This document shows, piece by piece, positions 946-50,570 of a stretch of DNA of 64,000 nt. The notes under the pieces are model-generated. The model was given only the letters and a program-made list of their open reading frames with translations, was not told where the DNA came from and ran no database searches. Source of the stretch: Aureliella helgolandensis (lineage in GTDB: Bacteria; Planctomycetota; Planctomycetia; Pirellulales; Pirellulaceae); assembly GCF_007752135.1 (NCBI RefSeq), contig NZ_CP036298.1, forward strand, positions 7,308,501-7,372,500, read 5' to 3'. Every line of letters begins with the position of its first letter. Position 1 is the stretch's first letter. The position numbers were made by a program, and so were the translations under genes.

Positions 946-1597
946 GCGATGACGAGTCATTGCGCTCCATATGGACTGCTGCGACTTGTCGTAGCTTTCT
1001 TGCCCGGCAACCCAAAGATTCGCCAGCAGGCGTAAACACTACCCCAGGGAGGGAATCGCTTGAACAGCCTCCCGCTGCGCGAGCAAGGAAAGGTGGTTTC
1101 CGCCACACGAGATTCAGGAGCTCCAGCTCGCCGCGAAAGCACAAACCGTTCTTAGCTCAACGAGCCGGAAGGACTTGGATTGCACGGAGTCAACCGGTCG
1201 GTGGCTTAACGACGCACCTCCCAGTAGTCACTCCAAAGCGATGACGAGGCATTGCGCTCCATATGGACTGCTACGACTCGTCGTAGCTTTCCTGCCCGGC
1301 AACCAAAAGACTCGCCAGCAGGCGTAAACACTACCCCAGGGAGGGGATCGCTTGAACAGCCTCCCGCTGCGCGAGCAAGGAACGGTGGTTTCCACCACAC
1401 GAGATTCAAGAGCCCTATCTCGCCTTGAAAATCACAAACCGTTCTTAACTCAACAAGCCGGAAGGACTCGGATTGCATAGAGTAAACTGGTCGGTGGCTT
1501 AGCGACTTAGCTCCCAGCAGGTACTCCAAAGCGATGACGAGTCACCGCACTCCATAGGGACTGCTACTACTCGTCGTAGCTTTCTTGCCCGGCAACC
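946..1597 (+). repeat. Triple-hairpin repeat (family A), copies 1-3, with tandem 290-bp units
   Basis: Three copies of a ~67-bp element lie at 946-1012, 1238-1304 and 1531-1597. Each has three consecutive palindromes: GCGATGACGAGTCATCGC or a close variant, a CCATATGG-centred hairpin, and GCTGCGACTTGTCGTAGC or a variant, followed by TTTCTTGCCCGGCAACC. The copies are 290 bases apart. The DNA between them is itself repeated (1013-1237 and 1305-1530 are alike), so 946-1530 is a tandem duplication of a 290-bp unit. No protein is encoded. Confidence 0.85.
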
Positions 1598-1752
1598 AGA
1601 CGCCCCCCATCGGCCCGGGTCCTGCCTAGAGAGAGGAGACCTTCATAAATCACCCGCGAGCAACCGCTCAGCGCAGTCCCCCCCACCGAGCCTGACGAAA
1701 AATCCACCCAAATAGGCCGTTTGGACGCTGTAATGAAATCGATACGACACGA

Positions 1753-1792
1753 TTTACTCTCTCCCTCTCCCCAAGTGCTTCAGGGGAGAGGT
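1753..1792. repeat. CCTCTCCCC hairpin repeat (family H)
   Basis: The arms CCTCTCCCC and GGGGAGAGG are separated by about ten bases. A related copy lies near 63447-63492. Hairpins of this wording are common dispersed repeats in bacterial genomes. It has no T-run and is far from any gene end, so I do not call it a terminator. Confidence 0.6.
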
Positions 1793-1889
1793 CCGGAGTA
1801 CCAGGACGAAGGGGAGCAGGTTCCGGTTGGGGGATCTGCAAGGTAATAGCCTTATTGAAGGTCCGGTTCGTGTATGTGGGGGCACTAGG

Positions 1890-2580: not shown

Positions 2581-2583
2581 TAA

Positions 2584-2693
2584 GGACCGTCGGAACAATT
2601 AATGGCGGATAGTCGCCGAACCGCTCCGCCGGTTCGTTCGGGAAAATGCCGATCGGCGGAGCGATCTGGCGACACTCATTGTACCGACGGTCC
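2584..2693. mobile_element. 110-bp MITE-like palindromic element
   Basis: The left end GGACCGTCGGAACAAT matches the reverse complement of the right end ATTGTACCGACGGTCC with one mismatch. The similarity continues inward (TAGTCGCC against TGTCGCC, then CGCTCCGCCG in both arms), so nearly the whole element folds into one imperfect hairpin. It is flanked on both sides by TAA, which may be a short target-site duplication. It lies ten bases after the family C block. It is too small to encode a transposase and would need one in trans. Confidence 0.65.
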
Positions 2694-3212
2694 TAAGTTC
2701 GACTTCCATTTTATTGCACACTAACCGCAGTTGGTCGGGCAAGGCGCCGCCTCGTTCATGGTGCCCCTATTCATATTCAGCACACCAACTTGCATTGAAT
2801 CTCTGTCGAAAAGATTCGCAACCTGAGGGTTAGGCATCAAGCTCGTGGAACTCGGTTTCGCCTCCCCAGGCTTTATGCAATCGCCATGCCGTAGCTGGCG
2901 GGGCTGGAGAAATAGTCCCCCTGTGGACGGCGGACGAGTTCGAGTTCGCATAGGAATAAGAGTACGAACCCTTGATTTCCTTGGCTTTGACGCATGGATG
3001 CGTGGGTAAACCTAAAGACACGGTCCGGGGGGCCATGCTACTTTTCCTTTCGACGGGGAAGCTACCAAGCATGCTCCCGCCGGGATATACCCGGAACGGA
3101 AAGCCACGCATCCGATGTAGTGTCTGCCATACTGCCCAGAGAGACGATCCCCTTTCGCCCAAGAGCAACCGCTCGGTGGGATAACCGCAACCGCCCAGAC
3201 AACAACCACAAA
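2694..3212. repeat. Repeat-derived intergenic DNA: degenerate hexamers and palindrome family B
   Basis: 2694-2930 shows nothing recognisable. At 2935-2963 there is a degenerate run of CGAGTT-type hexamers (family F). It is followed by TTGATTTCCTTGG, a phrase also seen near 9879, 50310 and 50711, and by the GC-rich palindrome family B (CACGGTCC..GGCCATGCTA) at 3019-3040. GCAACCGCTCGGTGGG at 3166-3181 precedes the next family A copy, as it also does near 39524 and 41744. Confidence 0.6.
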
Positions 3213-4403
3213 GCGATGACAAGTCATCGCACTCCATATGGACTGCTGCGACTCGTCGTAGCTTTCTTGCCCGGCAACGGGTTGATTCGGCGGTCAGGAT
3301 AGAGGCGGCTGCAGAGGGGAATAGGGCTTGGGTTATGTTGGGTCAACCGGTCGGTGGGTTAGCGACTCAGCTTCAAGCAGTCACCCCAAAGCGATGACGA
3401 GTCATCGCACTCCATAGGGACTGCTGCGACTCGTCGCAGCTTTCTTGCCCGGCAACCAAGAGACTCGCCAGTAGGCGCAAACACGCCCCAGGGAGGGGAG
3501 CGTTTGAACAGCTCCCGCTGCGTGAGCAAGGAAAGGTGGTTTCCGCCACACAAGATTCAGGGGCCCCAGCTCGCCGTGAAAGCACAAACCGTTCTCAACT
3601 CAACGAGCCGGAAGAAGCTTAGATTGCATAGAGTCAACCGGTCGGTGGCTTAACGACTCAGCTGCCGTCAGGCACTCCAAAGCGATGACGAGTCACCGCA
3701 GTCCATATGGAGTGCTACGACTTGTCGTAGCTTTCTTGCCCGGCAACCGGAAGCTTTCTCCAATGGCGGGAACATGCAGAGCACCCAAGCTAGCTGCCAA
3801 CCTCCGGTAGATTTCAGGCCTCCCTCCCTCTTGTAGCATGGTCCCCCGGACCGTGTCCTCCCCGGGGCCGTGGCCTCAAACACTCCACTATTCCATGCCC
3901 CCCTAGGAAATCAATGGTGCGCAATCGGAAAATTTCGAGCACGAGCACGAGTAGGAGATGCACTTTGGGACACGGCCCACAAACTTTTTCCAGTGGCGAC
4001 GGACGTGAGGCACCAAGGAAAAGCCGCTATTGAACCCAGTCAAACGTTCGGTGGAATACCCACTCCCCGCCCAAACACCCACTCCAAAGCGATGACGAGT
4101 CATCGCACTCCATATGGACTGCTGCGACTTGTCGTAGCTTTCTTGCCCGGCAACCAGGAGACTCGCCAGTAGGCGCAAACACGCCCCAGGGAGGGGAGCG
4201 TTTGAACAGCTCCCGCTGCGTGAGCAAGGAAAGGTGGTTTCCGCCACACAAGATTCAGGGGCCCCAGCTCGCCGTGAAAGCACAAACCGTTCTCAACTCA
4301 ACGAGCCGGAAGAAGCTTAGATTGCATAGAGACAACCGGTCGGTGGCCTAACGACTCTGCTGCCGGCAGACACTCCAAAGCGATGACGAGTCATCGCACT
4401 CCA
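3213..4403 (+). repeat. Triple-hairpin repeat (family A), copies 4-8, with two more 290-bp units
   Basis: Copies lie at 3213-3279, 3391-3457, 3682-3748, 4089-4155, and truncated at 4380-4403. The 290-bp unit seen at 946-1530 recurs at 3391-3681 and 4089-4379; these two are almost identical. Between them lie a family B palindrome (3834-3855) and a short hexamer run CGAGCA/CGAGTA (3937-3957). Copy 8 keeps only the first palindrome and stops eight bases before the 3' end of the EpsI-like gene. This stretch completes about 4 kb without a supportable gene. Confidence 0.85.
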
Positions 4404-4410
4404 CAGCCCC

Positions 4411-5079
4411 CTATGGCTGATGCTTGCTGGCCGTGGCCCACATCTCTTGGTTGAGCAAATCGGCGAATTCCTGCATCGGTCGCTCCGCGGTTTCCAGGGA
4501 ACTAAATCGCCCCTGCAGCAAAACCTTGATGGTGCAGGGCCAAGTCTTCTCTCCCCATAGCCGATAGAACATCGCCCGTGCCTCCTCGGGACTATGGAAG
4601 CGATCCTCGCCCATCTGGTACCAATGGCAGGTCACCACCGTTTCATCCTTGCGTTGGAATTGGATCAACTCAACGGGCATCTCCATTTCCGATTCGGGTT
4701 CCGCAGCGGTTTGCCGGCTACGCCGCGACATGACTTCCCAACCAGCGGCTGGGTAACAGACCTGAGGGTGGTGCGGGGTCGACTCCCCCACTTCACTGGC
4801 GCGCGACCAAATGGCGATATGCACACCAATCTCGCGACCTAAAGAATCGCGATAGATGCGATTGATGAAGGAGTCCGCGTGCAAGACGCGGATTGTGTCA
4901 TCGCGAATCTCCACCTCTTCTCCCACCCACTCTCCCAGCTTGAGCGGAATCTGTGAGGGATCGATCGGTGGCGACTCCACCGTGAAATCGTAGCCCGATT
5001 GCACGTAGCTGACCGTTCCCCAGGTAATCGCCAAGCAAGCGATCATAACCGTCGCCCGCGCGCTGAACGTATTCATCAT
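4411..5079 (-). CDS. EpsI-like exosortase-associated protein (DUF3485)
   Basis: 222 residues. EpsI-type proteins accompany or are fused to exosortases and are needed for matrix-polysaccharide/PEP-CTERM systems; their exact reaction is not settled. The N-terminus has one hydrophobic segment (about residues 8-25), so the rest should lie outside the cytoplasmic membrane. The family signature PHHPQVCYPAAGW is at 102-114, with Cys108. LKLGEWVG (47-54) is typical of the start of DUF3485. Two adjacent ATG codons give two possible starts; I keep the first. It is last in a minus-strand series after the exosortase and the tyrosine autokinase, 327 bases behind the latter, and that gap is filled with a repeat element. 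In many other loci the EpsI part is fused to the exosortase C-terminus; here the two are apart. Confidence 0.87.
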   Translation of the reverse strand: MMNTFSARATVMIACLAITWGTVSYVQSGYDFTVESPPIDPSQIPLKLGEWVGEEVEIRDDTIRVLHADSFINRIYRDSLGREIGVHIAIWSRASEVGESTPHHPQVCYPAAGWEVMSRRSRQTAAEPESEMEMPVELIQFQRKDETVVTCHWYQMGEDRFHSPEEARAMFYRLWGEKTWPCTIKVLLQGRFSSLETAERPMQEFADLLNQEMWATASKHQP

Positions 5080-5406
5080 CTTAAAAGTCTCTGTCTCAAG
5101 GATTCTCTAACGACGCTCGTTAACCCGCTCGGCACCGCATCACCACGGACGCCCGTTTAACAGGCCGTTGATTTAATAGCATCGATAACTTTGACGTACT
5201 GGCAGTGCCCCAACTGACCTGTAGCGGCAACCACCTTTCCTTGCTCACGGGGCTGTTGATTTAATAGCAATTTGAATTTTAACGCGGAGGTTGCGTCCCA
5301 AACTGCCATGTAGCGGCAACTATCGTTCCTAGCTCACGCAGCGGGTTACTATTTGAACAAGCCGCTCAGCGAAAGTTAAATCTCTACCGAGGGGGGGGGC
5401 CGCAAC
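5080..5406. mobile_element. 115-bp element with inverted ends (family D), copy 1, plus a partial copy
   Basis: The element at 5250-5364 starts GGGCTGTTGATTTAATAGC and ends GGTTACTATTTGAACAAGCC. The ends are inverted relative to each other, with mismatches in this copy. The middle contains ATTTTAACGCGGAGGTTGCG, also present in the copies near 8173 and 63819. A degraded partial copy (about 5160-5249) lies directly before it and ends in the same TTGCTCAC phrase into which the full copy seems to be joined. No gene. Confidence 0.7.
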
Positions 5407-7758
5407 TCAATTCTCGATCAACTTAGGCTTCCGCTCCACACTCCGATTTTGGTAGGCGTAGTAGCCTTGATAGCCCGTCGAACGACCGCCAATGACTACC
5501 GTTCCCAAGACAGCAATCCCGTACGATTTGAGCAGGTCGCATGCCCTAGCCGCGTTGGGCAGACGCGATCGATCCCGCACCAACGTGAAGATCACGCCAT
5601 CGGTATATTTACCAATTACGCGCGCATCGATCACAGGCAATACGGGAGGGGTGTCGATGATCACTAAATCGTAGTGGGATCGCAATTTATTGAGCAATGC
5701 CGCCAGACTCCCGTCCGATTCGCACTCCGTCACCGAACACAATTCGCCACCCGCCGTAATCACATGCAGATTGCGGGTGGTAGTCTCCTGGATCGCATGG
5801 GTCAGTTTCGTGGAACCGTGCAACAGCTCCGATACCCCAGGTCCTTCACTCAGCTCCAAATAACTGTGCAGCGAGGGCCGGCGCAGATCAAAATCGACCA
5901 ACAACACCCGTTTGCCAGACTTGGCCAGACTGCGTGACAATTGGCAGGAAATCGTCGATTTCCCTTCGCCTGCCAAGGCGCTTGAGACCATAAACACCTG
6001 GCGTTTCTCCACAGCCGCGCGGTGCAGCACCATGGCGGCTACCGAATCAATGGCTTCAGCTAACTCAACCGCTCGCTGATAATCCCGTCCCTTCTTGGCT
6101 TGGCCTGGAGAGACCAACGGATCGCGATCGACCATGGGAACCGTACCAAAGGTCGACAGCGAGAGCGAATGGCTGACCCCCTCCAAATTGTCTACCTTGC
6201 GGCGTGTCAGATCCCAGCCAACCAGCAGCACCAACGGCAACAGTAACCCTAGCCCCCCCCCGGCGCCCGCCACGGCAAATCGTTTCTTGAGATCCGGTGC
6301 GATCGCGCGATCGGCAGAACTGAGTAATTTGATACGAGAAGCGGTTTTGAGCTCGATGCTGGTTCGCTCGATCTCGCCCCCTACATGTTGCAGAACATCC
6401 TCCAGTCCTGCAATTTCCGCCCTCATCAATTCGACGTCAATCGACGATTGCCCCAGCTTGCGAGTTTCGTCTGACAAGACATCGACTTTCTCTTGCAGCA
6501 ACGCTTCTTGCTGCTTCAAGACTTCGATGTGCGAAGCCCGGCTGATGAGATCTTGCTGAGTGAGTGCGCCCAACGGAGTTCGGTTAGTGGCAGACTGTTG
6601 CTGCCCCAGTGGAAGCATAGACTCTGCGTTCGTCTTGGCGAGCGATTCCAGTGCAGCCTCCCGGGCATACTCCCGTCGTTTGTCCAGCAACTCTTGCCGC
6701 GCTTCCAGCTCGACAGTCAGGGCTCGGGCACTGGGGTGGCCGGGGCCGACCGAAGCTCGCATGACTGTCAATTGCGATTGGATACGAGCAATATCATCCT
6801 CCAGCCGCAATACGTCAGGGGTTCTCAGCAGCGATTCGGAAACGTCAGATTGAGGCTCACGTGCGGCAACCAGCCCGCCTTCCTCCGATTGCGAGTCGGC
6901 CGCCAATTCAGCAGCTTGGGTCCTTAAACGCTGGTCAAACTCTGAAGCCAGTTTCATTTCTCCTTCGGCCTGCATCAAGGCAAACTGAATCGTACTCAGC
7001 TTCTCTTGCATCAGACCGTACTGCTGCAATGCATTCTGCTGGGCCACGGTCAGGGATTCCGCGTCTCCCGTACCTAAAAGTGTAGCCAAGGATTTCAATT
7101 CAGCCCGCTTTATACGAACCTTGCTCTCCGCTTCCGCATGAACTATTTCCAGGCTTTCCAATCGCTGGCGTCGCTGGCTGCGTTCGTTCCCCACCACCTC
7201 CTTCATATAGGCGTCTACCACCCCATTCACAATTTTTACGCAATCGGCGGGAGACTGGGTTTCCAAAGTAACTTGCATAACCTCACCATCCCCTGGAAAA
7301 GTGACTTCCAGCTTTTCCTGCAACCAGGAAACAGGATCATCATGTTGCGCGATGATCGGCAGGGAGGACAATTCACCGTCACGCAGCGCCGCATTCAGCA
7401 CGAAGGGAGTCAGCATTATTTGCTGCTGCGTGCTCTTATACAACTTGAATCCCGATACGCCACCTCCAGCCTGATCGACCGTCTCAAACAACAGCGGACG
7501 ATTGTCAGAATCGATCCGCAAGTAGGCCGAGGCCGCATATTTTGGCACCATGGCCAGCCACCCAGCGACGGCCCCAGCAACTCCTAGCAAGACCCCTAGC
7601 GGCAGACCTATCCACCACCAACGTCGCAAGGAGCCTAGAGCTGCGGACAAATTGGGACCACTTGGTTCAGGCCCCCCTTTAACGGGTCGGGCTACGACGA
7701 TTTGCTGTTGTGCGTTTGTTCGCTGGCCGTTCGTCCCGTTGACTCTGTCTGTAACCAT
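5407..7758 (-). CDS. Wzz/GumC-type chain-length regulator fused to a BY-kinase (tyrosine autokinase)
   Basis: About 783 residues. It is predicted to sit in the inner membrane and control polysaccharide chain length and export through ATP-driven tyrosine autophosphorylation. The order is a short cytoplasmic N-terminus, a first membrane helix (around residue 50), a long periplasmic region with coiled-coil character, a second helix before the basic DLTRRK stretch, then a kinase domain. The kinase has Walker A in ALAGEGKST (around 590-600), an A' motif in LLVDFDLRRP, and Walker B in VIIDTPPVL (around 700). The C-terminus has a tyrosine cluster (GYQGYYAYQNRS), the normal autophosphorylation tail. 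The frame extends to a GTG at 7839; neither start has a good ribosome binding site, and I prefer the ATG at 7758. It lies between the exosortase and the EpsI-like gene, as usual in exosortase-linked loci. Confidence 0.9.
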   Translation of the reverse strand: MVTDRVNGTNGQRTNAQQQIVVARPVKGGPEPSGPNLSAALGSLRRWWWIGLPLGVLLGVAGAVAGWLAMVPKYAASAYLRIDSDNRPLLFETVDQAGGGVSGFKLYKSTQQQIMLTPFVLNAALRDGELSSLPIIAQHDDPVSWLQEKLEVTFPGDGEVMQVTLETQSPADCVKIVNGVVDAYMKEVVGNERSQRRQRLESLEIVHAEAESKVRIKRAELKSLATLLGTGDAESLTVAQQNALQQYGLMQEKLSTIQFALMQAEGEMKLASEFDQRLRTQAAELAADSQSEEGGLVAAREPQSDVSESLLRTPDVLRLEDDIARIQSQLTVMRASVGPGHPSARALTVELEARQELLDKRREYAREAALESLAKTNAESMLPLGQQQSATNRTPLGALTQQDLISRASHIEVLKQQEALLQEKVDVLSDETRKLGQSSIDVELMRAEIAGLEDVLQHVGGEIERTSIELKTASRIKLLSSADRAIAPDLKKRFAVAGAGGGLGLLLPLVLLVGWDLTRRKVDNLEGVSHSLSLSTFGTVPMVDRDPLVSPGQAKKGRDYQRAVELAEAIDSVAAMVLHRAAVEKRQVFMVSSALAGEGKSTISCQLSRSLAKSGKRVLLVDFDLRRPSLHSYLELSEGPGVSELLHGSTKLTHAIQETTTRNLHVITAGGELCSVTECESDGSLAALLNKLRSHYDLVIIDTPPVLPVIDARVIGKYTDGVIFTLVRDRSRLPNAARACDLLKSYGIAVLGTVVIGGRSTGYQGYYAYQNRSVERKPKLIEN

Positions 7759-8409
7759 TGCAACTTGTTTTTCACTGAGGAATTCTGAAGTTAATTTAAA
7801 TCCTTCGCTCGGCTTGAGCGAGCGAAGGACGCTAGCCACCGGCTTTATCTTTTGTCTCTCGGTCCCAGGCGGTGCCTGGGCTGTGCAAACAAGGGCAGTT
7901 GAAATCTGTTGCTGCCTCTCACATTACCCTGGAGTATCTACAGCGCAACCGTAGCATGGCCCCCCGGCCGTGTTTGCCACTCATTCGCAACTCTATCGCA
8001 TGTGCAGGCACAGCCCAAATACCCTCCCCCCAACGGCCCCCCATTCGGTCGCCCCTCGCGGCTTACTTGTTTGTCGCATGTTCTGTTATTTCGCAAAGGT
8101 CTCGCCACGGTTGGCGTTATATCAACGTTTCCCTGCTCACCGGCATGTTGAAATAGTAACCCGCCGCGTAACGGGCTGTCGATTTAATAGCAATTTGAAT
8201 TCTAACGCGGAGGTTGCGTCCCATACTGCCTTGCAGCGGCAACTATCTTTCCTTGCTCACGCAGCGGGTTACTATTTCGACAGCCCGGTAAGTAAGGACG
8301 AGTGGTTGTTGCTACGGGTCAATTAGGAAAACTATACTGCTCAGTAAAACCAAAATCGTGCTTAAATCAACAGCCCGTCACACGGCGGACTGCAATTTCG
8401 GCAAGGCCG
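7759..8409. mobile_element. Intergenic repeats: family B palindrome and 115-bp element (family D), copy 2
   Basis: 7952-7972 is a family B palindrome (TAGCATGGCCCCCCGGCCGTG). A partial inverted family D end lies at about 8139-8166. The complete family D copy is at 8173-8287; its ends are GGGCTGTCGA and TCGACAGCCC, a perfect 10-bp inverted match. Another loose end (ATCAACAGCCCG) is at 8348-8359. No open frame here has support. The block separates the exosortase from the kinase. Confidence 0.7.
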
Positions 8410-9336
8410 CTATCGCGCCGCCGCCGATCCCAATTGAGATCGGTGCCCGTCGTCAATAATCAATCGTTCCAGGATGGCCAACCCGCCCAAGAGGATCGCA
8501 AATCCCATCGGCATCATGACCCAGCCCGCCACATCGTGAAATATCTTCTCGGCAGTTTCCGCGCCGAAGTGCTCATACGCCAAACCGGTAGCGACGATTC
8601 GAATGCAGTTGACCGCGATTGCAATGGGTACTGCAGCCATGCCAATCGCGAGTTTTTCGATCAGACTACGATCAATGACCAAGCACGCGCCGACCGTTAG
8701 AGCAAAAAATGCATACAGCATTCTCAGGCCGCTGCAGGCTTCCGCCACGCCGATCTCTCCGTTGGAGAGTGAGATAATGTTCCCATCCGCGATGGCTGGT
8801 ACCCCTGCCGTCTGCAAGAAGAAGGTACTAATGCTCGTAGCCACCGCCTGCAATCCCCCGCTCATGCGACCCGCTAAGAATCCAGGCAGCGGAACGGTAA
8901 AGACCAAGAACAGCAGCGCCGGGAGTGCCCAGAGCATCGCGCGGCGCCCTAGCAAAATCCCCAGTGCCCCTAGCAAAAACGGTATGAGTGACAGTGCCTC
9001 AAAGGTCAAGACTCGCATGTAGATGCCGACCAACCGCAGCAACAGCCCCGCCACCAGCAGCGCTACGCCCCACCACAGACCATCGGAAATCAATGGGCTC
9101 CCAGAATCCGAAAGCGAGGCCAACTTCTTTCTGCCGGCCCAAAGTAGATAAAGCGAGAAGAGCACCACCAACCAACCATGCGAGTAGTCGGGATTGGTTT
9201 GCCAAGTCCGCGCCAGCCATCCAAAAATATCGGCATACATCCAGCCACAAAAGGCGACCACAATCAGGACCAGCCACCACGACTTATTGGTGGATGACGC
9301 GACTGCAGCGGGTTGGGATGGGTTTGAATCAGTCAT
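8410..9336 (-). CDS. Exosortase (membrane cysteine transpeptidase for PEP-CTERM proteins)
   Basis: 308 residues with about eight membrane helices. Exosortases recognise PEP-CTERM tails, cleave near the PEP motif and hand the exported protein on to the cell surface or matrix. The family's catalytic residues are all visible: Cys201 in VAEACSGLRM, Arg246 in VNCIRIV and His267 in FHDVAGW. The N-terminal region has the usual NPDYSHGWLV loop (48-57). Unlike many exosortases it has no C-terminal EpsI domain, but a separate EpsI-like gene follows two positions downstream. The ATG at 9336 has only a weak upstream purine run. At least five PEP-CTERM proteins are encoded within 55 kb on either side, at 11062, 21088, 38791, 40400 and 62243, and are its likely substrates. 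Confidence 0.95.
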   Translation of the reverse strand: MTDSNPSQPAAVASSTNKSWWLVLIVVAFCGWMYADIFGWLARTWQTNPDYSHGWLVVLFSLYLLWAGRKKLASLSDSGSPLISDGLWWGVALLVAGLLLRLVGIYMRVLTFEALSLIPFLLGALGILLGRRAMLWALPALLFLVFTVPLPGFLAGRMSGGLQAVATSISTFFLQTAGVPAIADGNIISLSNGEIGVAEACSGLRMLYAFFALTVGACLVIDRSLIEKLAIGMAAVPIAIAVNCIRIVATGLAYEHFGAETAEKIFHDVAGWVMMPMGFAILLGGLAILERLIIDDGHRSQLGSAAAR

Positions 9337-10460: not shown

Positions 10461-10841
10461 GCAAGAAAGCTACGACAAGTCGCAGCACGCCATATGGACT
10501 GCGATGACTCGTCATCGCTTTGGAGCAAATGTTTGGGCCGGAGCAGTTAGACCACCGAGCTAGCGCCCCTGAGCACCCCCCCGCTGCAGCCGCCTCTACC
10601 CCTGACCACCCAATCCACCCGCCCCGAAGCAAGAAAGCTACGACAAGTCGCAGCACGCCATATGGACTGCGATGACTTGTCATCGCTTTGGAGCAATCGT
10701 TTGGGCCGGAGCAGTCAGACCACCGAGCTAGCGCCACTGAGCACCCCAAGCCCCCCCCCTCCTTCTACAGCCGCCTCTACCTTGACCGCCCAATCCACCC
10801 GCCCCCAAGCAAGAAGGCTACGACAAATCGCAGCACTCCAT
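10461..10841 (-). repeat. Triple-hairpin repeat (family A), copies 9-11, tandem ~170-180-bp units
   Basis: Copies in inverted orientation lie at 10461-10518, 10629-10686 and 10809-10841 (truncated). The DNA between them is also repeated, including TTTGGGCCGGAGCAGT and GACCACCGAGCTAGCGCC, so this is a tandem array with period 168-180. The hairpin arms are the same as in the left-hand copies (GCTACGACAAGTCGCAGC, GCGATGACTCGTCATCGC). Confidence 0.85.
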
Positions 10842-11784: not shown

Positions 11785-12418
11785 CCAACCGACTCACCGA
11801 CCATGCGTTCACTCTGGGCCAATTTGCGGAACCGCTGGCAGCGTCTTTTTGCGGCGAGCGCCCAGTGCGGGAGCTGCCACGAGTGGCTCCCCCCTGCCCT
11901 ACTTCAAGATCTGGGGCACTGCTATGTTTGCCCACGCTGCCAAGCCACTGTTTCGGAGCAATTGTAGCCCGCCCCCTTCCCGTAGCATGGTCGCCCCGAC
12001 CGTGTCCCCTTCCCGTAGCATGGCCCCCCGGACCGTGTTCCTCCCGTGGCACGCCCCCAGGCCCTTGTTCCCTCACACCCCGTCACATGGACCACCGGCC
12101 CTCTACCAACCTCCCCCGACAAGAAGGCTATTCTCCCCGTCGCCTTCAACCTAAACTTGCATGTAAGAGAGTGGACGATGGAACAGGCCGAATGAGCTAA
12201 AAAATCGAGGGGACATGCCACCTCGTCCCGCACCTACCCAAAATCCATTTTGGATGAGCCGCTGGTTCTATACTGGTCGTTAGAATTGAGTCCACACTAG
12301 CATTCCGCACCGAGGGCTTCATCCGAGCTGGCTTTCAGAGTCAAGGGATTCGCCAGCCCCCCGTTGATCGCGGCGACCAAGAGCTCGCTACTTCCCTCTC
12401 CCCCAGCTGAGTGCAACG
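11785..12418. repeat. Intergenic region with two or three family B palindromes
   Basis: Palindromes of the type GTAGCATGGTC..GACCGTG lie at 11983-12003 and 12015-12037, with a degraded third at 12045-12066. The remainder (11785-11980 and 12070-12418) shows no gene and no clear terminator for the PEP-CTERM gene that ends at 11784. Confidence 0.6.
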
Positions 12419-38304: not shown

Positions 38305-38790
38305 ACTAGACACGAATGTTTAAGCGTCAAGAGATTGGTGTTTGAATGGCAATCCTGCGCCAACCGCGACCGATCCCCAAAAGGGCAACCGCCACCACCT
38401 CATTCTGCTACAAGGTGACAATCCACCGCATTCCCACCGCAACAGTTGCACAACCTACCCAGTCTCACTCGCCGGATTCATCGATTTTTTACAGTGACTT
38501 CCCTCCACCTGCTCGCTTGCTAGCAAACTCTCTGCGGGCTGTGATTCACCTTACCACGCACAGCCGCCCCCCCGATGGCTACGGAACAACAGCAAGAGGA
38601 TTGTATTAAATATCGCGATTCTACCGGTACTCCTGATTGTATATGCGTCAAAGATTGTGTAGGGCACAATAGCTACCTAATCGTTGCGTATTCTCCCCCT
38701 TCGACTATCATGAGGGTCAGGCACAACAGAATGGAATGTGTGCTACTTAGACGCCCGCCCCCCACTGAAGTCAACATGGAGTTCTTAGCA
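38305..38790. other. Divergent intergenic region between the sugar transferase and a PEP-CTERM gene
   Basis: It should hold promoters for the minus-strand glycan cluster and for the plus-strand PEP-CTERM gene. No repeat of the window and no convincing promoter pair is seen. The frame of the PEP-CTERM gene is open back to 38575, but the residues there do not look like protein and a signal peptide begins only at 38791. Confidence 0.4.
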
Positions 38791-39342
38791 ATGCGATCGC
38801 TGGTATTGTCAGTTATAGTTATGTTTGCCACCTCGGTAGCACACGCGGACGTGATCAACGTCGACGTTAGTGGTTGGCAAGCAGTGGGAGGCTACACAGC
38901 TCCCGGCAATTCCTTCCAAACATTCGACCTCGGGCCCAGCGGTGTACTGAGCGACGTTTCGTGGACCGATTTGGATTACGACGCTCCTGCTCCGAGCAAT
39001 CTAAGTGAACTTGTATTCAACTTCACGAATTCCGATCGCAGCCAGTCGTGGCAATTCACCGTTTCCGGAACAACCTCCCCAGGTAACTACTTCGGAAGTG
39101 GTAATGTCTTCACCGACAAGGTGGCTGGAGGAGTTGGTCCGGTCACCACACTGGCTGATGGAATCTTGCGGTTTGAAGTTTACGATTCGTTCAACGACCG
39201 CAGCATTCCGGTCGACCAGATCATCAACAGCGGTACCTTCAATTTGACGGTCAGCGATGTTCCGTCAGTACCCGAGCCGAGCAGCGCCGGACTTGCGGGA
39301 CTTGTGCTCCTGGCCAGCATGTGGCGCCGCTCGCGGCAATAG
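38791..39342 (+). CDS. PEP-CTERM sorting-domain protein
   Basis: 183 residues from the ATG at 38791, with GGAG nine bases upstream; an in-frame ATG at 38776 overlaps that site. Signal peptide MRSLVLSVIVMFATSVAHAD with an A-H-A|D cleavage site. The mature part is a compact beta-type domain starting VINVDVSGWQAVGG with SELVFNFTNSDRSQSWQFTV in the middle; this pattern recurs in planctomycete PEP-CTERM proteins, but I know no function. The sorting signal is VPSVPEPSSAG, LAGLVLLASMW and RRSRQ. A strong intrinsic terminator lies 42 bases after the stop. It is divergent from the initiating sugar transferase gene and so placed at the head of the exopolysaccharide cluster. Confidence 0.9.
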   Translation: MRSLVLSVIVMFATSVAHADVINVDVSGWQAVGGYTAPGNSFQTFDLGPSGVLSDVSWTDLDYDAPAPSNLSELVFNFTNSDRSQSWQFTVSGTTSPGNYFGSGNVFTDKVAGGVGPVTTLADGILRFEVYDSFNDRSIPVDQIINSGTFNLTVSDVPSVPEPSSAGLAGLVLLASMWRRSRQ

Positions 39343-39380
39343 CATCTACCCATGCAGTGCATTGCCCACCATAAACCAAC

Positions 39381-39409: not shown

Positions 39410-40399
39410 ATGGGCGTCCGACCATGCTGCCGCCACACGTCGTAGCATCCGACTCGGCAACCTGGAGATTTTGCCAACGACCGATGTGCGGGCAGCGGGA
39501 AAGGCCTCTACCGAACACCAACAACCGCTCGGTGGGATGACCACTCCCGTCCAGAACACCACTCCAAAGCGATGACGAGTCATCGCACTCCAAATGGACT
39601 GCTGCGACTTGTCGTAGCTTTGTTGCTCGGCAACCTGGGGATTATTTCAGTGGCGGGAAAATGCAGAGCACCCCATCTTCCTGCCAGTCTCCGGTAGACT
39701 CCCCCACTCGTAGCATGGTCCCCCGGACCGTGTCGCTCCTCCCAGGTAGCATGGTCCCCCGGGCCGTGCCTCAAGCACCCAACCAATCTCCATGTGCTCC
39801 CCCGAGGAAATCGATGGTTCGCACTCCGAGAATTTCGAGCACGAGCACGAGCACGAGTAGGAGTAGGAGTAGGAGTAGGAGCAACACTGTGAAACACGCC
39901 AACCGAGGAATAGCTACCCTCCAAATTGAGGGCAACCGCACTCTCCCAACAGCGAAAGAAAATACCACTCACCCTTAACAGCAACTCAGAGCTAGCCCAC
40001 TTAGTTGCTCGCACTTCCACAACATTGAACCGAAAGAGGAACAGCGCGCACAACTGTTTAGAGTTCCCCTGCCCCTTCAACAACATGCTTCATCATTGCT
40101 GGAAAGAACCAACATCAGAAGTGACTTGCACAGAGGGCGATAGCAACAAAATCAATATCCACCACTACTTCTGCTTACTCCACCACGCAATGCCCTGCCT
40201 CGGCAGAATGCCTTACCTAAACATTTACAGCTAGCACTGGAGTGATTAGATTTCTAGTGAGAAAGCCCCTGCCTGCCTCGTTAGTGCAACAGCAGCGACT
40301 TTGCGATACAGACGGCATCGCCACGTCGCTTCCCGATTGGAAAGTCGCATGCACCGGGGCACGTTTTTTGGTTCTTTGATTTCTGGAAAGTAATGCGCC
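39410..40399. repeat. Composite repeat (families A, B, F), copy 1, upstream of a PEP-CTERM gene
   Basis: 39497-39860 is a composite, read left to right: GCAACCGCTCGGTGGG-type phrase (near 39524), family A copy 12 (39569-39635), a spacer with AAAATGCAGAGCACCCCA, two family B palindromes (39711-39731, 39747-39768), then GAGGAAATCGATGGTTCGCA and a hexamer run (39836-39883: CGAGCA three times, CGAGTA, GGAGTA three times, GGAGCA). About 350 bases of it recur at 41352-41745 on the other side of the next gene. 39890-40399 has nothing recognisable beyond the upstream region of that gene. Confidence 0.8.
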
Positions 40400-41203
40400 A
40401 TGAGGTTTCGTTTTCGACCCCGAGTCTACGATCCCCTTTCATTTTTGCGTTCTATCGCAGTACTGTCATCCCTCGCCTACGCATCTCCAGCCCTTGCTGG
40501 CGTAATCGATTTCGAAACGCTCCAGGACGGTCTGACTGCACCAACTGACGATGCTGCACTTGACCGCACTGTCGGATTTACGTTCGATGGAACGAATAGC
40601 GTCACTTTTGGATTCGACTACTCTGGCAATGATTTCAATGCGGATACCGATGCCGTGTTTGAAGCACGCGGTTCAGATAAGTTCAATGGTTTTGAGTCCA
40701 AACAAGCCGAACTGAACGGCGGCGCCAAACACGACACCGAACGGCCAGGCTCAGCCTACTCGCTAGGCAATTTTTTCCTGCGGCAACCTGCATCCATTGG
40801 ATCAGTTCCCGGTCCTTTCATTATTGACTACGCCCAAGTAGTCTCGGCCCTGAGTGGTGAAATCTGGGACATCGATACAGGCAGTGCTGGGTACGAGCAA
40901 TGGAAGGTCACTGCTTTCGATGCCGGAGGAACAACAATCACCTCGCTGCTTAGCCCAAAGGGAGACACCCTGCAAACAAACTCCTCCTCTGGCGATAGCT
41001 TGCCCTGGATTTTTTCGATTGCCGGTAGCGGGATTAAGAAGGTAGCTATTGAGTTTGTTGGAACGAATAAAATTGTTGGTTTAGCGTTTAACAATTTCAA
41101 TCCATCCTCGGCCACTGTACCCGAACCAACATCGCTGCTTGTCTTTAGCATCGGCGCGCTGTCCCTAGTGCGTGTACGACCTCGCCGTAGGGCAGCGACT
41201 TAA
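40400..41203 (+). CDS. PEP-CTERM sorting-domain protein
   Basis: 267 residues, start ATG at 40400 with a loose GGAAAG 12 bases upstream. The N-terminus is basic (MRFRFRPRVYD) before the hydrophobic core FLRSIAVLSSLAYASPALAG, with an A-L-A|G cleavage site. The mature part begins VIDFETLQDGLTAPTDDAAL and contains FTFDGTNSVTFGFDYSGND and, near the end, KVAIEFVGTNKIVGLAFNNF. It looks like a carbohydrate- or calcium-binding beta-sandwich, but no family is certain. Sorting signal: VPEPTSL, LVFSIGALSLV and RVRPRRRAAT. It is flanked on both sides by direct copies of the same composite repeat. GGGGCACGTTTTTTGG some 35 bases upstream resembles a sigma-54 site but has GG where GC is required. Confidence 0.9.
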   Translation: MRFRFRPRVYDPLSFLRSIAVLSSLAYASPALAGVIDFETLQDGLTAPTDDAALDRTVGFTFDGTNSVTFGFDYSGNDFNADTDAVFEARGSDKFNGFESKQAELNGGAKHDTERPGSAYSLGNFFLRQPASIGSVPGPFIIDYAQVVSALSGEIWDIDTGSAGYEQWKVTAFDAGGTTITSLLSPKGDTLQTNSSSGDSLPWIFSIAGSGIKKVAIEFVGTNKIVGLAFNNFNPSSATVPEPTSLLVFSIGALSLVRVRPRRRAAT

Positions 41204-41875
41204 ATTGCCGACGTAGCAGGGGCAGCCGGGGTTGAAAAGCTCTCTGCCCATGCCATGGGGAACGGAGTGCAACATAGGGACTGCTGCGACTTGTCGTAGC
41301 TTTCCTGCTCGGCAACCTGGAGATTTTCCAGTGGCGGGCGTGGGAGACCAGGGGAAAAGGCCTCTAGCGAACACGAGCAACCGCTCGGTGGGATAACCAC
41401 TCTTGCTCAAACCACCACTCCAAAGCGATGACGAGTCACCGCAGTCCATAGGGACTGCTGCGACTTGTCGTAGCTTTGTTGCTCGGCAACCTGGGGATTT
41501 TTCCAATGACGGGAAAATGCAGAGCACCCCACCTTCCTGCCTGCCTTCGGTAGACTCTCCCCACTCGTAGCATGGTCCCCCGGACCGTGTCGCTCCTCCC
41601 AGGTAGCATGGTCCCCCCGGGCCGTGGCCCTCCGTCCAAGTAGCACGGTCCCCCGGGCCGTGCCTCAAGCACCCAACCAATCTCCATGTGCTCTCCCGAG
41701 GAAATCGATGGTTCGCACGAGAGAATTTCGAGCACGAGCACGAGCAACCGCTCGGTGGGATAACCACTCTCGCTCAAACCACCACTCCAAAGCGATGACG
41801 AGTCATCGCACTCCATATGGAGTGCTGCGACTTGTCGTAGCTTTGTTGCTCGGCAATTCCGCAGATGTGAGATAT
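41204..41875. repeat. Composite repeat (families A, B, F), copy 2
   Basis: Degenerate family A copy 13 at about 41265-41317, full copies 14 (41425-41491) and 15 (41792-41857). Three family B palindromes lie at 41568-41589, 41603-41626 and 41641-41662. GAGGAAATCGATGGTTCGCA (41698-41717) and a short CGAGCA run (41727-41746) follow, then GCAACCGCTCGGTGGG (41744-41759). The order A, B, hexamers, A is the same as at 39.5 kb. Copy 15 stops about 19 bases before the 3' end of the HdeD-like gene. Confidence 0.85.
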
Positions 41876-42469
41876 TTAGAGGCTCTTCAAACCACGGATT
41901 TTGAAGGCACAGTAAATTGCCACAGCTCCGAACAGAATGGCAAAACCACCGCTGATGCGAATCAACAGGCTGGCCGAAAGCAGGGGAGCTAGCGCCAAGG
42001 CGACTCCAAAGAGAATTGAGAACAGCCCGTCCAACATCATCCATCCTTCGCCTTGGATGGCTTTGCGTTCACGGATCGCAACGACAATTTCAAGTACTCC
42101 ACTGGCCATCGAGAGCCCTGCGATAATCAGCACGACGGTGATTGCGGCTATCGCACCAAACAAGGCTGGATGCCCTGCAGCGAATGCGCCTGCAACGATC
42201 GCCAAAACACCTCGCAGAATCGTCCAGCCGCGCGCCTGCGTCCATCCTGCAAGCCCGGCGATCACCGCTAAGACACCATCGATGACCAAGAAGATTCCAA
42301 CCACCAGCGCCCACGTTAGCAACGTTAGCCCGGGATTAATGAGCGCGTATAAACCGATAGCTAGGAGAACGATGCCGCGCAGCAGCAGGATCCACCAATT
42401 CGCCGCCAAGGCGTTTAGGATCAATGTAGCGTTGGAGGACTCGGGGGAAGGCGATAGAGGCTCAGGCAT
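41876..42469 (-). CDS. HdeD-family membrane protein (DUF308)
   Basis: 197 residues, start ATG at 42469 with GGAG nine bases upstream. Six evenly spaced hydrophobic helices in three pairs, the pattern of the HdeD/DUF308 family: WWILLLRGIVLLAIGLYALI (25-44), ALVVGIFLVIDGVLAVIAGL, then GWTILRGVLAIVAGAFAAGH, ITVVLIIAGLSMASGVLEIV, GWMMLDGLFSILFGVALALA and IRISGGFAILFGAVAIYCAF. E. coli HdeD is linked to acid resistance at high cell density; the role in Planctomycetes is unknown. It stands alone on the minus strand, between two repeat-filled gaps. Confidence 0.88.
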   Translation of the reverse strand: MPEPLSPSPESSNATLILNALAANWWILLLRGIVLLAIGLYALINPGLTLLTWALVVGIFLVIDGVLAVIAGLAGWTQARGWTILRGVLAIVAGAFAAGHPALFGAIAAITVVLIIAGLSMASGVLEIVVAIRERKAIQGEGWMMLDGLFSILFGVALALAPLLSASLLIRISGGFAILFGAVAIYCAFKIRGLKSL

Positions 42470-42594
42470 CTTGCCAAGCTCCTTTCTTAGGGTGAGGGGC
42501 TGATTCGAAAGCGCGTGCGACCTCCATTCTACGTTCTACCGTCTACGTCTCGAGCCTGGTAACGAATCTACGAGAGTCTTTTGGCTGATTTTTT
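42470..42594. other. Upstream region of the HdeD-like gene
   Basis: Contains the ribosome binding site of the gene; no promoter can be named. The tandem array begins directly after it. Confidence 0.35.
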
Positions 42595-43375
42595 CGCTTT
42601 GGCAGTTGCAGAGAAATAACGCTCCGTAGCTACGCTCGCCAGAGCGTGGGAAACAACGCACGCCCACCGTCTGGCGACGGTAGCTACCCTGCGGATGCGC
42701 CTACCGACGAAAGCGAAGACAGTTGCAGGGAAATAGCGCTCCGTAGCTACGCTCGCCAGAGCGTGGGAGGGAAAGCCCACCGTCTGGCGACGGTAGCTAC
42801 CGTGCGGATACGACTGCCGACGAAAGCGAAGGCAGCTGCAGGGAAATAACGCTCCGTAGCTACGCTCGCAAGAGCGTGGAAGGAAGGACCACCGGCTGGC
42901 GAAGGTAGCTACCCTGCGGATGCGCCTACCGACGAAAGCGAAGACAGTTGCTGGGAAATAACGCTCCGTAGCTACGCTCGCCAGAGCGTGGAGGGAAGGA
43001 CCACCGTCTGGCGACGGTAGCTACCCTGCGGATGCGACTACCGACGAAAGCGAAGGCAGCTGCTGGGAAATTGCACTCCGTAGCTACGCTCGCCAGAGCG
43101 TGGAAGGAAGGACCACCGGCTGGCGACGGTAGCTACCGTGCGGATACGACTACAGACGAAAGCGAAGACAGTTGCAGGGAAACAACGCTCCGTAGCTACG
43201 CTCGCCAGAGCGTGGGAGGGAAGGACCACCGTCTGGCGACGGTAGCTACCGTGCGGATGCGACTGCAGACGAAAGCGACGGCAGCTGCAGGGAAATAACG
43301 CTCCGTAGCTACGCTCGCCAGAGCGTGGGAAACGCTGCACGCCCACCGTCTGGCGACGGTAGCTACGGTGACTGC
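42595..43375. repeat. Seven-copy tandem array, 112-117-bp unit with two small hairpins each (family E)
   Basis: Each unit has hairpin 1, ACGCTCGCCAGAGCGT, and 13-18 bases later hairpin 2, ACCGTCTGGCGACGGT. Hairpin 1 starts at 42632, 42749, 42862, 42974, 43086, 43198 and 43311. The loops read GCCA and TGGC, which are complementary to each other. The two hairpins with their flanks (GTAGCTAC before the first, GTAGCTAC after the second) are also inverted copies of one another, so one long hairpin is an alternative fold. The first and last units share a longer spacer (18 bases) than the middle ones (13-14). Open frames across the array have no gene support. Confidence 0.9.
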
Positions 43376-43450
43376 GTAACGACGATGCCGCCAGGGCGGA
43401 GAATGACAACGGGGCGTGCTTTTAGAAAAATGCTTCTGCATCCACCTGAG

Positions 43451-46811: not shown

Positions 46812-46840
46812 AGTACTGGTCCTTATATGTTGAGGAAGCC

Positions 46841-47735: not shown

Positions 47736-49988
47736 ATGGCTTTCTCGTTGAATTTCCTATTTTTCAAGGCACAGAAGCCCCGTCGATCGAGCAAGCGTCG
47801 CCGGCAGCTGTCCTTGGAGTCACTGGAAAACCGACGAGTCCTCGCTGCCCTCCCCTATGGCGCTACCGAAGCGGATTTGGGAGAGTTCATGCTGGGCACG
47901 GTTGGAGTGACGCCCGTCTTCTTTGAGAGCAACGGCCAATTGGACACCAGTTCAGAGGACTGGACTCCGGCGCATATCTCCGAAGTGCTGGGAAATATTG
48001 ACGAAGGCCTGGATTGGTGGGTCGACCTGCTTGCAACCCAATCCTCGGTCCACGAGCTCTCCTTTACGTTGGACACGACCTACGCGACGACTCCAGTGGA
48101 GACGAAATACGAGCCCATCGCGCGCCGCTCGAACGATTACTCCCTCTACGTCACCGAATTCCTAACCTCTGCTGGATTCACGTCCGGCAATATCGAAACG
48201 GACATTCGCTCCTTCAATCAAGCGCAGCGCGAGAAGCTGGGCACCGACTGGTCGTACACGATGTTCGTGATCCCCTCGGAGAACGACACGGATGGGAATT
48301 TTGCAAGTGGCGGTTCCTTTAGCCGCGCGTTTGCCTTTGCGGGCGGCTTGTTTATGGTCGTGCCCTCCACGCGTCCAGCCTCAACCTTTGCCCACGAAAC
48401 CGGACACATTTTCTGGGCCCGAGATGAGTACTTGGGAGGCAGCTCCTCGTTCGCCAAACGCGGATACTACAACACCTCCAATGACAATTCGGCCGACAAT
48501 CCAACTCCAGGTTTCGTGCAGCAGCCCAGCATCATGGCCTCCTCCACCCTGCTTGATACGGCCTATGAAAACTATATTTCCCCAGCCAGCACCCTGGCGA
48601 TGCTCGGTTGGCAAGACTCCGACCAGGACGGCATTTTTGATGTGCTCGACGTTCCCCACCGATTAACGGGCACCGGATACCTCGACAGCTCAGACGGGAT
48701 CTATCACTTCCAAGGCAACGCAACGGTGCAAACCCTCGCCAACCAAAACCCAGCGGGATTGGGGAACGATATCACCCTCAACCGCATTCGGGAAATTGAG
48801 TACCGATTTGATGTCGGCGAATGGCAAATCTACTCCACCCCCGATGCCTACGAAGTCGCTTTAGAGATGTCGATTCCGGTCCCCTCCGGCGTTACACAAA
48901 TCGAAATTCGAGCGAGGGATTCGAAGACCACCGTGGCCAGCAACCTCTTTACAGGCCAATTGAGCCGAGCCGACGCGACCCTAACGCCAGGTATTAACGG
49001 TTCGGTTTGGATCGACGCCAATGGTAACGGCCTGCGCGACACCAGTGAATTTGGAAGAGAGGGCTGGCAGATCGACTTAGTCGATAACTTGGGACAAAGC
49101 GTTCCATTGAAAACGACGATTGAGCCCGACAACTATCCAGACGGCACGCTGACGAGCAACTTCAACCCGCAGCTTACCCTGGCTGCGGTGGGCACCGACA
49201 CCGATGGACGCGTGGGGGTCTTTGCCGACAGTTCAACCAGCACCGGTAGCAAAAACTTTCGATTGTTCTCAAGGTCTTCCAACACCTACCAAGCTCTCTG
49301 GAACGACAGTTCGCGGCAGTTGCAAGCAACATTTTCGGTCCCCACCACTCGCGTCACCATTGATGGGATCGCCGCGGGCGACGGAGCCATCGGCCGGATG
49401 GACGCATACAACTCGAATGGGCAATTGATCGGTCGATACACCACGGCCAATATGGACGATGGACAATTTGAAACCATGACCATCGAAAGCGCCGCGGCAG
49501 ACATCGCCTGGGTAACCATCGGCGGCCACGCTGGGACTCGCGTCAGGTTGGACAACCTGTCGTTCGGTCCCGAAAGCAGCACAACTACAGACGCATTGGG
49601 GTTGTTCCAATTCCCTGCGCTCCCCGAGGGGGATTACCAAGTACGAGTCACTCCACTGGGGAATTACCAAAGTCTGGCTTCCGAGGACGCGACGCGAACC
49701 GCCAGTGTGCTAGCGAGTGAGATTACGACGGGCGTTGACTTTGGATTTCAGACCAGCGCCAGCAGTTGGCAAAATCCGACGAACCGATTGGACGTCAATA
49801 ACGACAGCTTCGTTTCCCCCATCGATGCCTTACTGATCATCAATGAGCTCAATTCCGAGCGTGGTGGTGGGTTATTAACCGGTACCGACGTCCCATTCTC
49901 CCCCTTCCTCGACGTGGACGGGGATGAATTCGTTGCTCCCATCGATGTCTTGCTAGTCATCAACCATCTCAATAGCCAAAACGCTTAG
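47736..49988 (+). CDS. Large secreted metallopeptidase-like protein with SdrD B-like and dockerin repeats
   Basis: 750 residues from the ATG at 47736, with GGAG nine bases upstream. The basic N-terminus ends in LSLESLENRRVLAA, a variant of the LEPR-XLL motif that marks large exported proteins in Planctomycetes. A zinc-peptidase motif H-E-T-G-H is at 220-224, followed by IFWARDEY (225-232). It is embedded in a domain from about 50 to 310 with YTMFVIPSENDTDGNFASGG before it, so proteolysis is plausible. After a domain of unknown kind, SVWIDANGNGLRDTSEFGRE (about 425-445) marks an SdrD B-like/CNA-B-like repeat. The C-terminus has two dockerin-type calcium repeats: DVNNDSFVSPIDALLIINEL and DVDGDEFVAPIDVLLVINHL. 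No cohesin gene is in the window. Confidence 0.85.
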   Translation: MAFSLNFLFFKAQKPRRSSKRRRQLSLESLENRRVLAALPYGATEADLGEFMLGTVGVTPVFFESNGQLDTSSEDWTPAHISEVLGNIDEGLDWWVDLLATQSSVHELSFTLDTTYATTPVETKYEPIARRSNDYSLYVTEFLTSAGFTSGNIETDIRSFNQAQREKLGTDWSYTMFVIPSENDTDGNFASGGSFSRAFAFAGGLFMVVPSTRPASTFAHETGHIFWARDEYLGGSSSFAKRGYYNTSNDNSADNPTPGFVQQPSIMASSTLLDTAYENYISPASTLAMLGWQDSDQDGIFDVLDVPHRLTGTGYLDSSDGIYHFQGNATVQTLANQNPAGLGNDITLNRIREIEYRFDVGEWQIYSTPDAYEVALEMSIPVPSGVTQIEIRARDSKTTVASNLFTGQLSRADATLTPGINGSVWIDANGNGLRDTSEFGREGWQIDLVDNLGQSVPLKTTIEPDNYPDGTLTSNFNPQLTLAAVGTDTDGRVGVFADSSTSTGSKNFRLFSRSSNTYQALWNDSSRQLQATFSVPTTRVTIDGIAAGDGAIGRMDAYNSNGQLIGRYTTANMDDGQFETMTIESAAADIAWVTIGGHAGTRVRLDNLSFGPESSTTTDALGLFQFPALPEGDYQVRVTPLGNYQSLASEDATRTASVLASEITTGVDFGFQTSASSWQNPTNRLDVNNDSFVSPIDALLIINELNSERGGGLLTGTDVPFSPFLDVDGDEFVAPIDVLLVINHLNSQNA

Positions 49989-50570
49989 CGATTTATCAAT
50001 GCGAAGCAAACTAGGTTAGGCGAGAGAGCGGGCATGGAGTCGTCCCCAGCCAAGTACGGTCATCCCTCACGAGGCTCCCGACGTTGCGTCTTCGACAGAA
50101 GCTCCTGGATTCTACGGTCCTCCCAATGTGCCACCACCCCGCCCATCAAAACCAACGGCGCAATGTATCTCCAAGCATACTCGCCCCTGCGGTGGTCCCA
50201 GACAGACACTTTGGCAGGAAGGTGAAGGCAGGAAGATGGAATGCGTGCGAGAGGATGATCGCGGTCTTGGCTTCAGCCGCATTCTCCCGTGGATGGCCCC
50301 TTGATTTCCTCGGGTTTACCGTATGGTTTGTGGGGAAACGTGAGGACACGGTCCGGGGGACCATGCTACCGTGGGGAGGCGGACTGAAATCTACCGGAGG
50401 CTGGCAGCTAGATTGGGTGCTCTGCATTTTCTCGCACTGCCCCCCCCCCGGTTGCCGGGCAAGAAAGCTGCGACAAGTCGCAGCACTCCATATGGAGTGC
50501 GATGACTCGTCATCGCTTTGGAGTGGTGGTCTGGACGGGAGTGGATAGTCCACCGAGCGGCTGACTGTGC
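49989..50570. repeat. Inverted composite repeat: family B palindrome and family A copy 16
   Basis: The same composite as at 39.5 and 41.4 kb, in opposite orientation. TTTGGCAGGAAGGTGAAGGC (50211-50230) resembles the phrase at 10 kb. TTGATTTCCTCGGGTTTACC (about 50301) is the complement of the GAGGAAATC phrase. Family B lies at 50346-50367, and family A copy 16 at 50451-50516 with perfect arms GCACTCCATATGGAGTGC in its middle hairpin. The first 200 bases after the dockerin gene show no terminator. Confidence 0.75.

Follow-up and report, generated by a model that had tools for sequence, protein, structure and literature searches.

In this analysis of 64,000 nt (in the following called the window) of the single 8.44-Mb contig of Aureliella helgolandensis, we found that its repeated hairpins are very probably REPINs (doublets of repetitive extragenic palindromic sequences, REPs, that form hairpins). 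They would belong to a family linked to REP-associated tyrosine transposases (RAYTs), with the tags on the outside and with an uncommon tag of the GGAG type.

The proposed element is small and non-autonomous and consists of a spacer flanked by two inverted 26-nt palindromic REPs, called A and B, whose tags point outwards. When the DNA is single-stranded, each REP would fold into a hairpin of 7–8 bp preceded by the tag GGA[G/C]T. Hairpin and tag together would be recognized by a RAYT of one particular clade, which would cut beside them and move the pair. Where two REPINs came to have their tags side by side, with 4 or 6 nt between them, the stretch would be duplicated in tandem to produce arrays, and the abutting, nearly complementary tags would give the appearance of a middle hairpin.

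Anatomy of the repeat and its mobile unit

A sequence-only reading of the window had reported sixteen copies of a triple hairpin. The repeat is indeed present at all 16 places, 3–13 nt off the starts given there; 13 of the places hold two hairpins that face each other and 3 hold a single one, which makes 29 hairpins in total. The facing pair is a unit of 56 nt in which two palindromic 26-mers stand face to face. Hairpins 1 and 3 of the earlier description are these REP-like 26-mers, A and B, with the pattern GGA[G/C]T-GC-N3-GAC-N2-GTC-N3-GC-TTT. Type A mostly reads GC-TGCGAC...GTCG[T/C]A-GC and type B mostly GC-GATGAC...GTCATC-GC, and the two types alternate within clusters. The exact pattern matches the A. 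helgolandensis genome 110 times, the same pattern read backwards not once; the repeat is not due to chance. Allowing up to three mismatches, we counted 148 26-mers in 26 clusters within 16 fetched regions and the window (151 raw matches, three of which had 4 mismatches and were dropped), with up to 15 REPs in the largest cluster. Phage records gave no match to a 113-nt query.

The three-hairpin unit had been mis-registered: the triple hairpin is the junction between two tags-out pairs. In the A. helgolandensis genome there are 59 tags-out pairs, ten of them complete in the window, and all 59 are heteropairs of one A and one B. They measure 164–403 bp, 52 of them 164–218 bp, and the spacers in the window are 112–351 nt long, mostly 112–166 nt. 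Tags-in pairs number 63; the 61 with a gap of 4 or 6 nt are the triple hairpins, and the two junctions with a longer gap were excluded from the junction alignment. Among the 119 loci listed from other genomes, neighboring REPs (up to 300 nt apart, up to two mismatches) were oriented tags-out in 69 of 76 pairs, tags-in in 5 and in the same direction in 2. On the basis of this orientation the triple hairpin was set aside as the mobile unit. Four clusters of A. helgolandensis consist of one tags-out pair alone (genome positions 884551, 6466206, 6737164 and 7295102). On its outer side the tag is flanked by T[T/A]T (seen over 168 copies), and 50 of 68 tags-out pairs have these letters at each end. 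The letters at the junctions are largely constant inside one array and differ from array to array, which fits tandem duplication of a single junction.

Covariation and folding of the stems

Among the 61 aligned junctions of A. helgolandensis, 52 are distinct. In these, hairpin 1 shows three pairs changed on both sides, and hairpin 3 varies chiefly at one pair (GU in 36, GC in 12 and AU in 4), which bears out the example of paired change previously given for it. The covariation claimed for hairpin 2 is refuted, because two tag letters vary independently: the varying pair is unpaired in 39 of the 52 distinct rows, corresponding to 43 of the 61 copies. Hairpin 2 consists of the abutting tags of two adjoining REPINs.

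Across genomes, 184 of 210 cells in the REP stem were Watson-Crick pairs; 2000 shuffles averaged 97 and never exceeded 119. This test covers three free stem pairs in 70 distinct sequences, since the search pattern fixes GC, GAC, GTC and GC as well as all tag letters but one. The earlier proposal that structure rather than sequence is preserved thus holds for the single REP stems and not for hairpin 2. When three copies were folded as single-stranded DNA, one gave the three hairpins ascribed to every copy, while the others gave two hairpins or one long imperfect hairpin, because the 56-mer is itself nearly palindromic.

Distribution of the repeat

Outside A. helgolandensis, at least 119 loci with the pattern were listed, so that the distribution is a lower bound; in scan order they include 41 from Verrucomicrobiota, 37 from Planctomycetota, 19 from Acidobacteriota and 8 from Chlamydiota. 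Of 59 relatives that were searched, 5 contain the exact pattern. In a sample of 42 loci from 39 genomes, every one selected for carrying the motif, it was found 1–343 times per genome, with no control matches in any of the 39.

A RAYT clade linked to the REPs

In a genome of the Terriglobia, a gene of the Y1 type encoding about 180 amino acids lies between two inverted REPs (locus L232). Its product scores 86.4 bits against the NCBIfam model NF047646 REP_Tyr_transpos (cut-off 80) and 22.9 against Pfam Y1_Tnp, just below the cut-off of 23, and it matches the TnpAREP structure 4er8 in the PDB with an E-value of 1.1e-5.

We computed a tree of 95 Y1 proteins, drawn largely from motif-bearing genomes and relatives. 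In this quick analysis, supported by SH-aLRT (Shimodaira-Hasegawa-like approximate likelihood ratio test) values only, 22 proteins form one clade (SH-aLRT 97). A REP is held by 16 of the 22 clade loci and by 1 of the 73 other Y1 loci (Fisher p = 2e-12, with rows that are not independent), the latter drawn largely from the same genomes as the clade loci. A REP was counted as held if it occurred with up to three mismatches anywhere in the fetched locus, which extends up to ~1.5 kb on each side. Since the loci L215, L217, L221 and L232 had first been recognized by their own REPs, we also counted without these, giving 12 of 18 clade loci. The locus set excludes ten duplicates and eight loci that lacked a RAYT query, and six rows that are fragments or fusions (L202, L203, L213, L241, L277 and L294) were dropped from the tree. 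One of these, L241, is the C-terminal piece of the A. helgolandensis RAYT, and so that gene is absent from the tree. We quote tree counts here because some of the 24 protein comparisons above 85 bits repeat one gene.

The motif HYHF is present in 20 of the 22 clade rows, and the last motif is mostly Y[V/T]H.N[P/A]. In the 21 rows in which the respective motif was found, the residue after W is F, Y, H or V and in no case Q. In the alignment with 4er8, its WQ corresponds to WY in the query protein of the clade. WQ has been counted among the conserved residues of the tag region, and its conservation has been discussed for subclasses whose tag is GTAG (PMC6006769). The change of the tag and the change of the residue next to W may belong together.

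Three other RAYT-like genes of A. helgolandensis (L184, L186 and L185) lie amid different palindromes of their own, around GGGCTTGCCCCGGCGGA and GGATCGCTCCGCGATCC as judged by eye.

The clade RAYT of A. helgolandensis is interrupted

The statement that no REP-associated transposase is encoded here is right for the window, which contains neither any of the 7 Y1 matches of the genome nor either of the two RAYT pieces, but pieces of a clade RAYT end 13.4 kb upstream of it. The RAYT-like gene that the sequence-only reading had suggested looking for in the complete genome thus exists, but is interrupted. The sole clade match in the genome consists of two pieces at 7292693–7292989 (query residues 5–103) and 7294831–7295070 (residues 102–181), with 53% and 69% identity to the clade query and 36.7 and 29.1 bits against NF047646, respectively. 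REPs flank the split gene on both sides. It gave no Pfam match even at an E-value of 1 and was therefore found only through the clade protein query; the 7 matches to Pfam Y1_Tnp in the genome are all at loci without this REP.

Between the two pieces lies a 1.84-kb element of the IS1380 family with a transposase of 507 amino acids (258 bits, cut-off 180). A copy with 99.95% identity is located at 6676231–6678072, beside a REPIN array that starts at 6678089, and this near-identity makes the break look recent. With the gene split by IS1380, RAYT-driven movement should have stopped, to judge from the sequences only recently. Both IS1380 copies (L044 5991–7832 and L041 3232–5073, ends approximate) stand beside REPIN sequence and are flanked by ACTAG-like letters.

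Comparison with known systems

The resemblance to REP elements and to bacterial interspersed mosaic elements (BIMEs) noted from the sequence was correct, and the linked RAYT clade now adds to it. In the broad sense, four features of a REPIN/RAYT system are present: a palindrome in many copies, mostly intergenic, inverted pairs with the tags outside, compensatory changes in the stem and a RAYT beside REPs. A fifth, binding and cutting of the single-stranded REP by the RAYT, is predicted. The REPINs of Pseudomonas fluorescens SBW25 (PMC3116915) are likewise built on the inverted REP pair, show compensatory changes, and form tandem clusters as well as clusters beside RAYT genes. Here, in contrast, the tag is GGA[G/C]T instead of GT[A/G]G, the spacers are longer, the arrays are larger and the RAYT belongs to another clade. 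The organization described for BIMEs (PMC8266576) is also alike.

REPs of the GTAG superfamily (PMC3733652) share palindromes of 20–40 nt, 2-nt loops, head-to-head and tail-to-tail dimers a few nucleotides apart, hetero-dimers and tandem groups, and they occur in bacteria of the Planctomycetes-Verrucomicrobia-Chlamydiae group including Opitutus terrae and R. baltica. The text of that source, as distinct from its Figure 1 with the consensus sequences, gives GYAG, GYRG, GTRG, GTMG and GTGG as deviations and does not mention GGAG. The same paper describes TIRtrons with TIRYT genes, that is, RAYT-like genes with non-GTAG inverted repeats, some of them self-complementary and repeated in the genome and some from Acidobacteria. 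By their text description, figure sequences apart, these are set apart by a shared motif of their own, GGGGWSAS.

Among the TnpAREP classes (PMC6006769), subclass 2.8 resembles our clade in the HYH of its HUH motif and in W followed by Y or H. Going by description, subclass 2.8 has the motifs NHYH, W[Y/H] and YIHYNP, to be compared with the clade motifs given above. It differs in its reported GT[A/G]G REPs, in YIHYNP and in occurring mainly in Cyanobacteria. Subclass 2.6 has atypical structures too, but comes from Bacteroidetes and has WQ. Class 3 is alike in its deviant tags and its occurrence in Planctomycetes and Acidobacteria, but has the foot CnGA, NHVH and Y----Q. We rejected membership in class 3, as the clade has HYH, Y---N[P/A] and a GGA[G/C] foot. 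Deviant tags as such are already known, from class 3 (CnGA) and from subclass 2.6. The CGTC-tagged REPs, which have no associated transposase, were ruled out by the other tag and by the linked RAYT. In the texts of the literature searched we found neither the motif nor a GGAG-tagged family; a consensus drawn in figures or supplements could exist.

Points weighing against a REPIN/RAYT system

Several observations weigh against the interpretation as RAYT-moved REPINs. The tag GT[A/G]G, given as a defining feature of canonical REPs in two sources (PMC3686654, PMC6006769), was tested for and is absent; the foot is T[T/A]TGGA[G/C]T, with GGAG in 141 and GGAC in 23 of 169 copies. The cross-genome pattern itself fixed GGA.T, so that only the flanks and the fourth tag letter could vary. 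The A. helgolandensis copies, which were recovered by a plain DNA query, have this foot as well. Because GT[A/G]G is absent, we describe a REPIN/RAYT system with a deviant tag and not a member of the GTAG superfamily.

The linkage to the clade is incomplete in both directions. A clear clade RAYT (E < 1e-20) was detected in 16 of the 39 motif-bearing genomes and none in the other 23, among them genomes with 221 (G065) and 46 (G086) exact motifs. Draft assemblies or losses may account for such genomes, and other enzymes are also conceivable. A further genome, G010, has 19 motifs and no clear clade RAYT. Conversely, two genomes (G004 and G052) have a clade RAYT and no exact motif, and 6 of the 22 clade loci lack a REP at up to three mismatches, although one of them (L240) has copies at four.

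As to the unit, four lone tags-in junctions (genome positions 7296381, 7305510, 7348066 and 7358964) equal the lone tags-out pairs in number. We assume that they may be eroded two-copy arrays. When the middles of the spacers were compared, leaving aside the conserved spacer ends, just 32 of 171 comparisons beat all 200 shuffles; in these, the likeness between some distant clusters indicates that the spacer travels with the pair.

Position relative to genes and alternative explanations

The earlier statement that all copies are intergenic is mostly right, with the reservation that eight open reading frames (ORFs) of at least 120 amino acids overlap copies in the window. Seven of these were scanned against Pfam and gave no match; the eighth (41624–41992, plus strand) lay outside the scan. 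Genome-wide, on a rough ORF list that also underlies the following counts, 3 of 26 clusters are overlapped by an ORF of 202–346 amino acids. Two ORFs of 325 and 346 amino acids traverse REPIN arrays (G000:C1:6650718-6651695 and 7012752-7013792), which is probably an effect of the repeats. At least one neighboring ORF ends towards the cluster in 25 of the 26 cases, and one cluster lies between divergent ORFs. This fits the downstream location of REPs reported in PMC3733652.

Such a location would also be expected if the repeats, whatever their origin, were retained chiefly because they perform a task for the host where genes end, such as forming RNA 3′ ends, stabilizing mRNA or binding gyrase or IHF-like proteins. 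That the copies are well kept despite the split RAYT points the same way, but as the break looks recent, their conservation says little in favor of a host task. Selection against harmful insertions would equally lead to the avoidance of promoters, and a host task accounts for the use of the repeats and not for their origin or their linkage to the RAYT clade. We consider it unlikely as the main explanation.

Still less likely, and improbable in our view, is that the triple hairpin itself is the element, a structured RNA or DNA with all three stems under selection that is copied as a whole. Its 13 copies in the window and 61–63 in the genome, the copy that folds into three hairpins and the four lone junctions, which have no tags-out partner within 1 kb, speak for it. 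The mispairing of hairpin 2 in most copies and the rarity of the tags-in orientation in other genomes speak against it, as do the complete tags-out pairs that stand alone; moreover, no Rfam family matched within the window at gathering thresholds. A miniature inverted-repeat transposable element derived from an insertion sequence of the DDE type, with hairpins in its terminal inverted repeats, is suggested by the short non-coding body between inverted ends of 26 nt; it is hardly credible and was dropped once the gene flanked by such ends (L232) proved to be a Y1/HUH RAYT instead of a DDE transposase, while the T[T/A]T outside both tags belongs to the repeat (other target duplications were not searched).

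REPINs, junctions and other features of the window

The REPINs (A, spacer, B) and tags-in junctions (B, then A) are given here in window positions, with the start of the corresponding copy in the sequence-only reading in brackets after each junction. On the plus strand, junctions lie at 943–998 (946), 1235–1290 (1238) and 1528–1583 (1531), with REPINs of 288 bp at 973–1260 and of 289 bp at 1265–1553. Further junctions follow at 3210–3265 (3213), 3388–3443 (3391), 3679–3734 (3682) and 4086–4141 (4089), with REPINs of 174 bp at 3240–3413, 287 bp at 3418–3704, 403 bp at 3709–4111 and 287 bp at 4116–4402. The minus strand carries junctions at 10466–10521 (10461) and 10634–10689 (10629), with REPINs of 164 bp at 10496–10659 and of 176 bp at 10664–10839. 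On the plus strand again, a REPIN of 170 bp at 41278–41447 is joined at 41422–41477 (41425) to one of 363 bp at 41452–41814, which ends in the junction at 41789–41844 (41792). Two junctions are lone, at 39566–39621 (39569) on the plus and at 50464–50519 (50451) on the minus strand. The three copies previously called cut or decayed are single 26-mers at outer ends of REPINs and not damaged copies: the B end at 4377–4402 (cut copy 4380), which is also the end of its array, and the A ends at 10814–10839 (cut copy 10809) and 41278–41303 (decayed copy 41265).

A second repeat, GTAGCATGGTCCCCCGGACCGTG, has the canonical GTAG start and seven copies (family D17; 3826–3868, 11975–12050, 39703–39781, 41560–41602 and 63683–63725). 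It also occurs inside the spacers of the REPINs at 3709–4111, where the GTAG-type palindrome begins at 3834, and at 41452–41814, where there are several such palindromes. Another GTAG-type candidate is a tandem array at 42601–43441 with a period of ~112 bp and paired palindromes starting with GTAGCTAC (families D7–D9). Repeats with the inverted pair TTTGCGTCTTAGCGGCTTTGCG / CGCAAAGACGCTAAGCCGCAAAG are found at 1955–2579 and 24021–25546 (families D2, D4 and D13), and CTCCTA units form a simple tandem run at 50559–50660 (family D18). Exosortase, DUF3485 and ParA-like genes lie near the first arrays (4411–9336) and PEP-CTERM-like proteins are encoded near 39–41 kb (38575–39342 and 40400–41203), the match of 40400–41203 being below the Pfam cut-off. 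Domains of planctomycete type were found as well, namely PSD2-5, PSCyt1, PSCyt3 and DUF1552.

Implications

The kind of system, REPIN and RAYT, is already known; its recognition tag differs from those of the described families. We tentatively put forward a wider scenario, which we regard as possible though rather doubtful as a whole. A RAYT clade that once read GT[A/G]G as its tag would have switched to GGA[G/C], and the spread of its REPINs would have reached at least Planctomycetota, Verrucomicrobiota, Acidobacteriota, Chlamydiota and Chloroflexota. The RAYT would create tag-to-tag junctions from which arrays start, and A. helgolandensis, with its RAYT freshly cut by IS1380, would represent a natural stop-point of such a REPIN population.

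To the known REPINs and RAYTs the analysis adds one more family with its matching transposase clade, and searches based on GTAG or GTGG, the rule stated for an RNAMotif search in PMC6006769, would overlook its tag. Setting RAYTs that read GTAG against those linked to GGAG would offer a direct test of how HUH enzymes read the tag. REPs have been proposed to decay after the inactivation or loss of their RAYT (PMC3686654), and with a RAYT split by an insertion sequence beside ~150 well-kept REPs, A. helgolandensis would make the fate of REPs after the death of their RAYT testable within one lineage.

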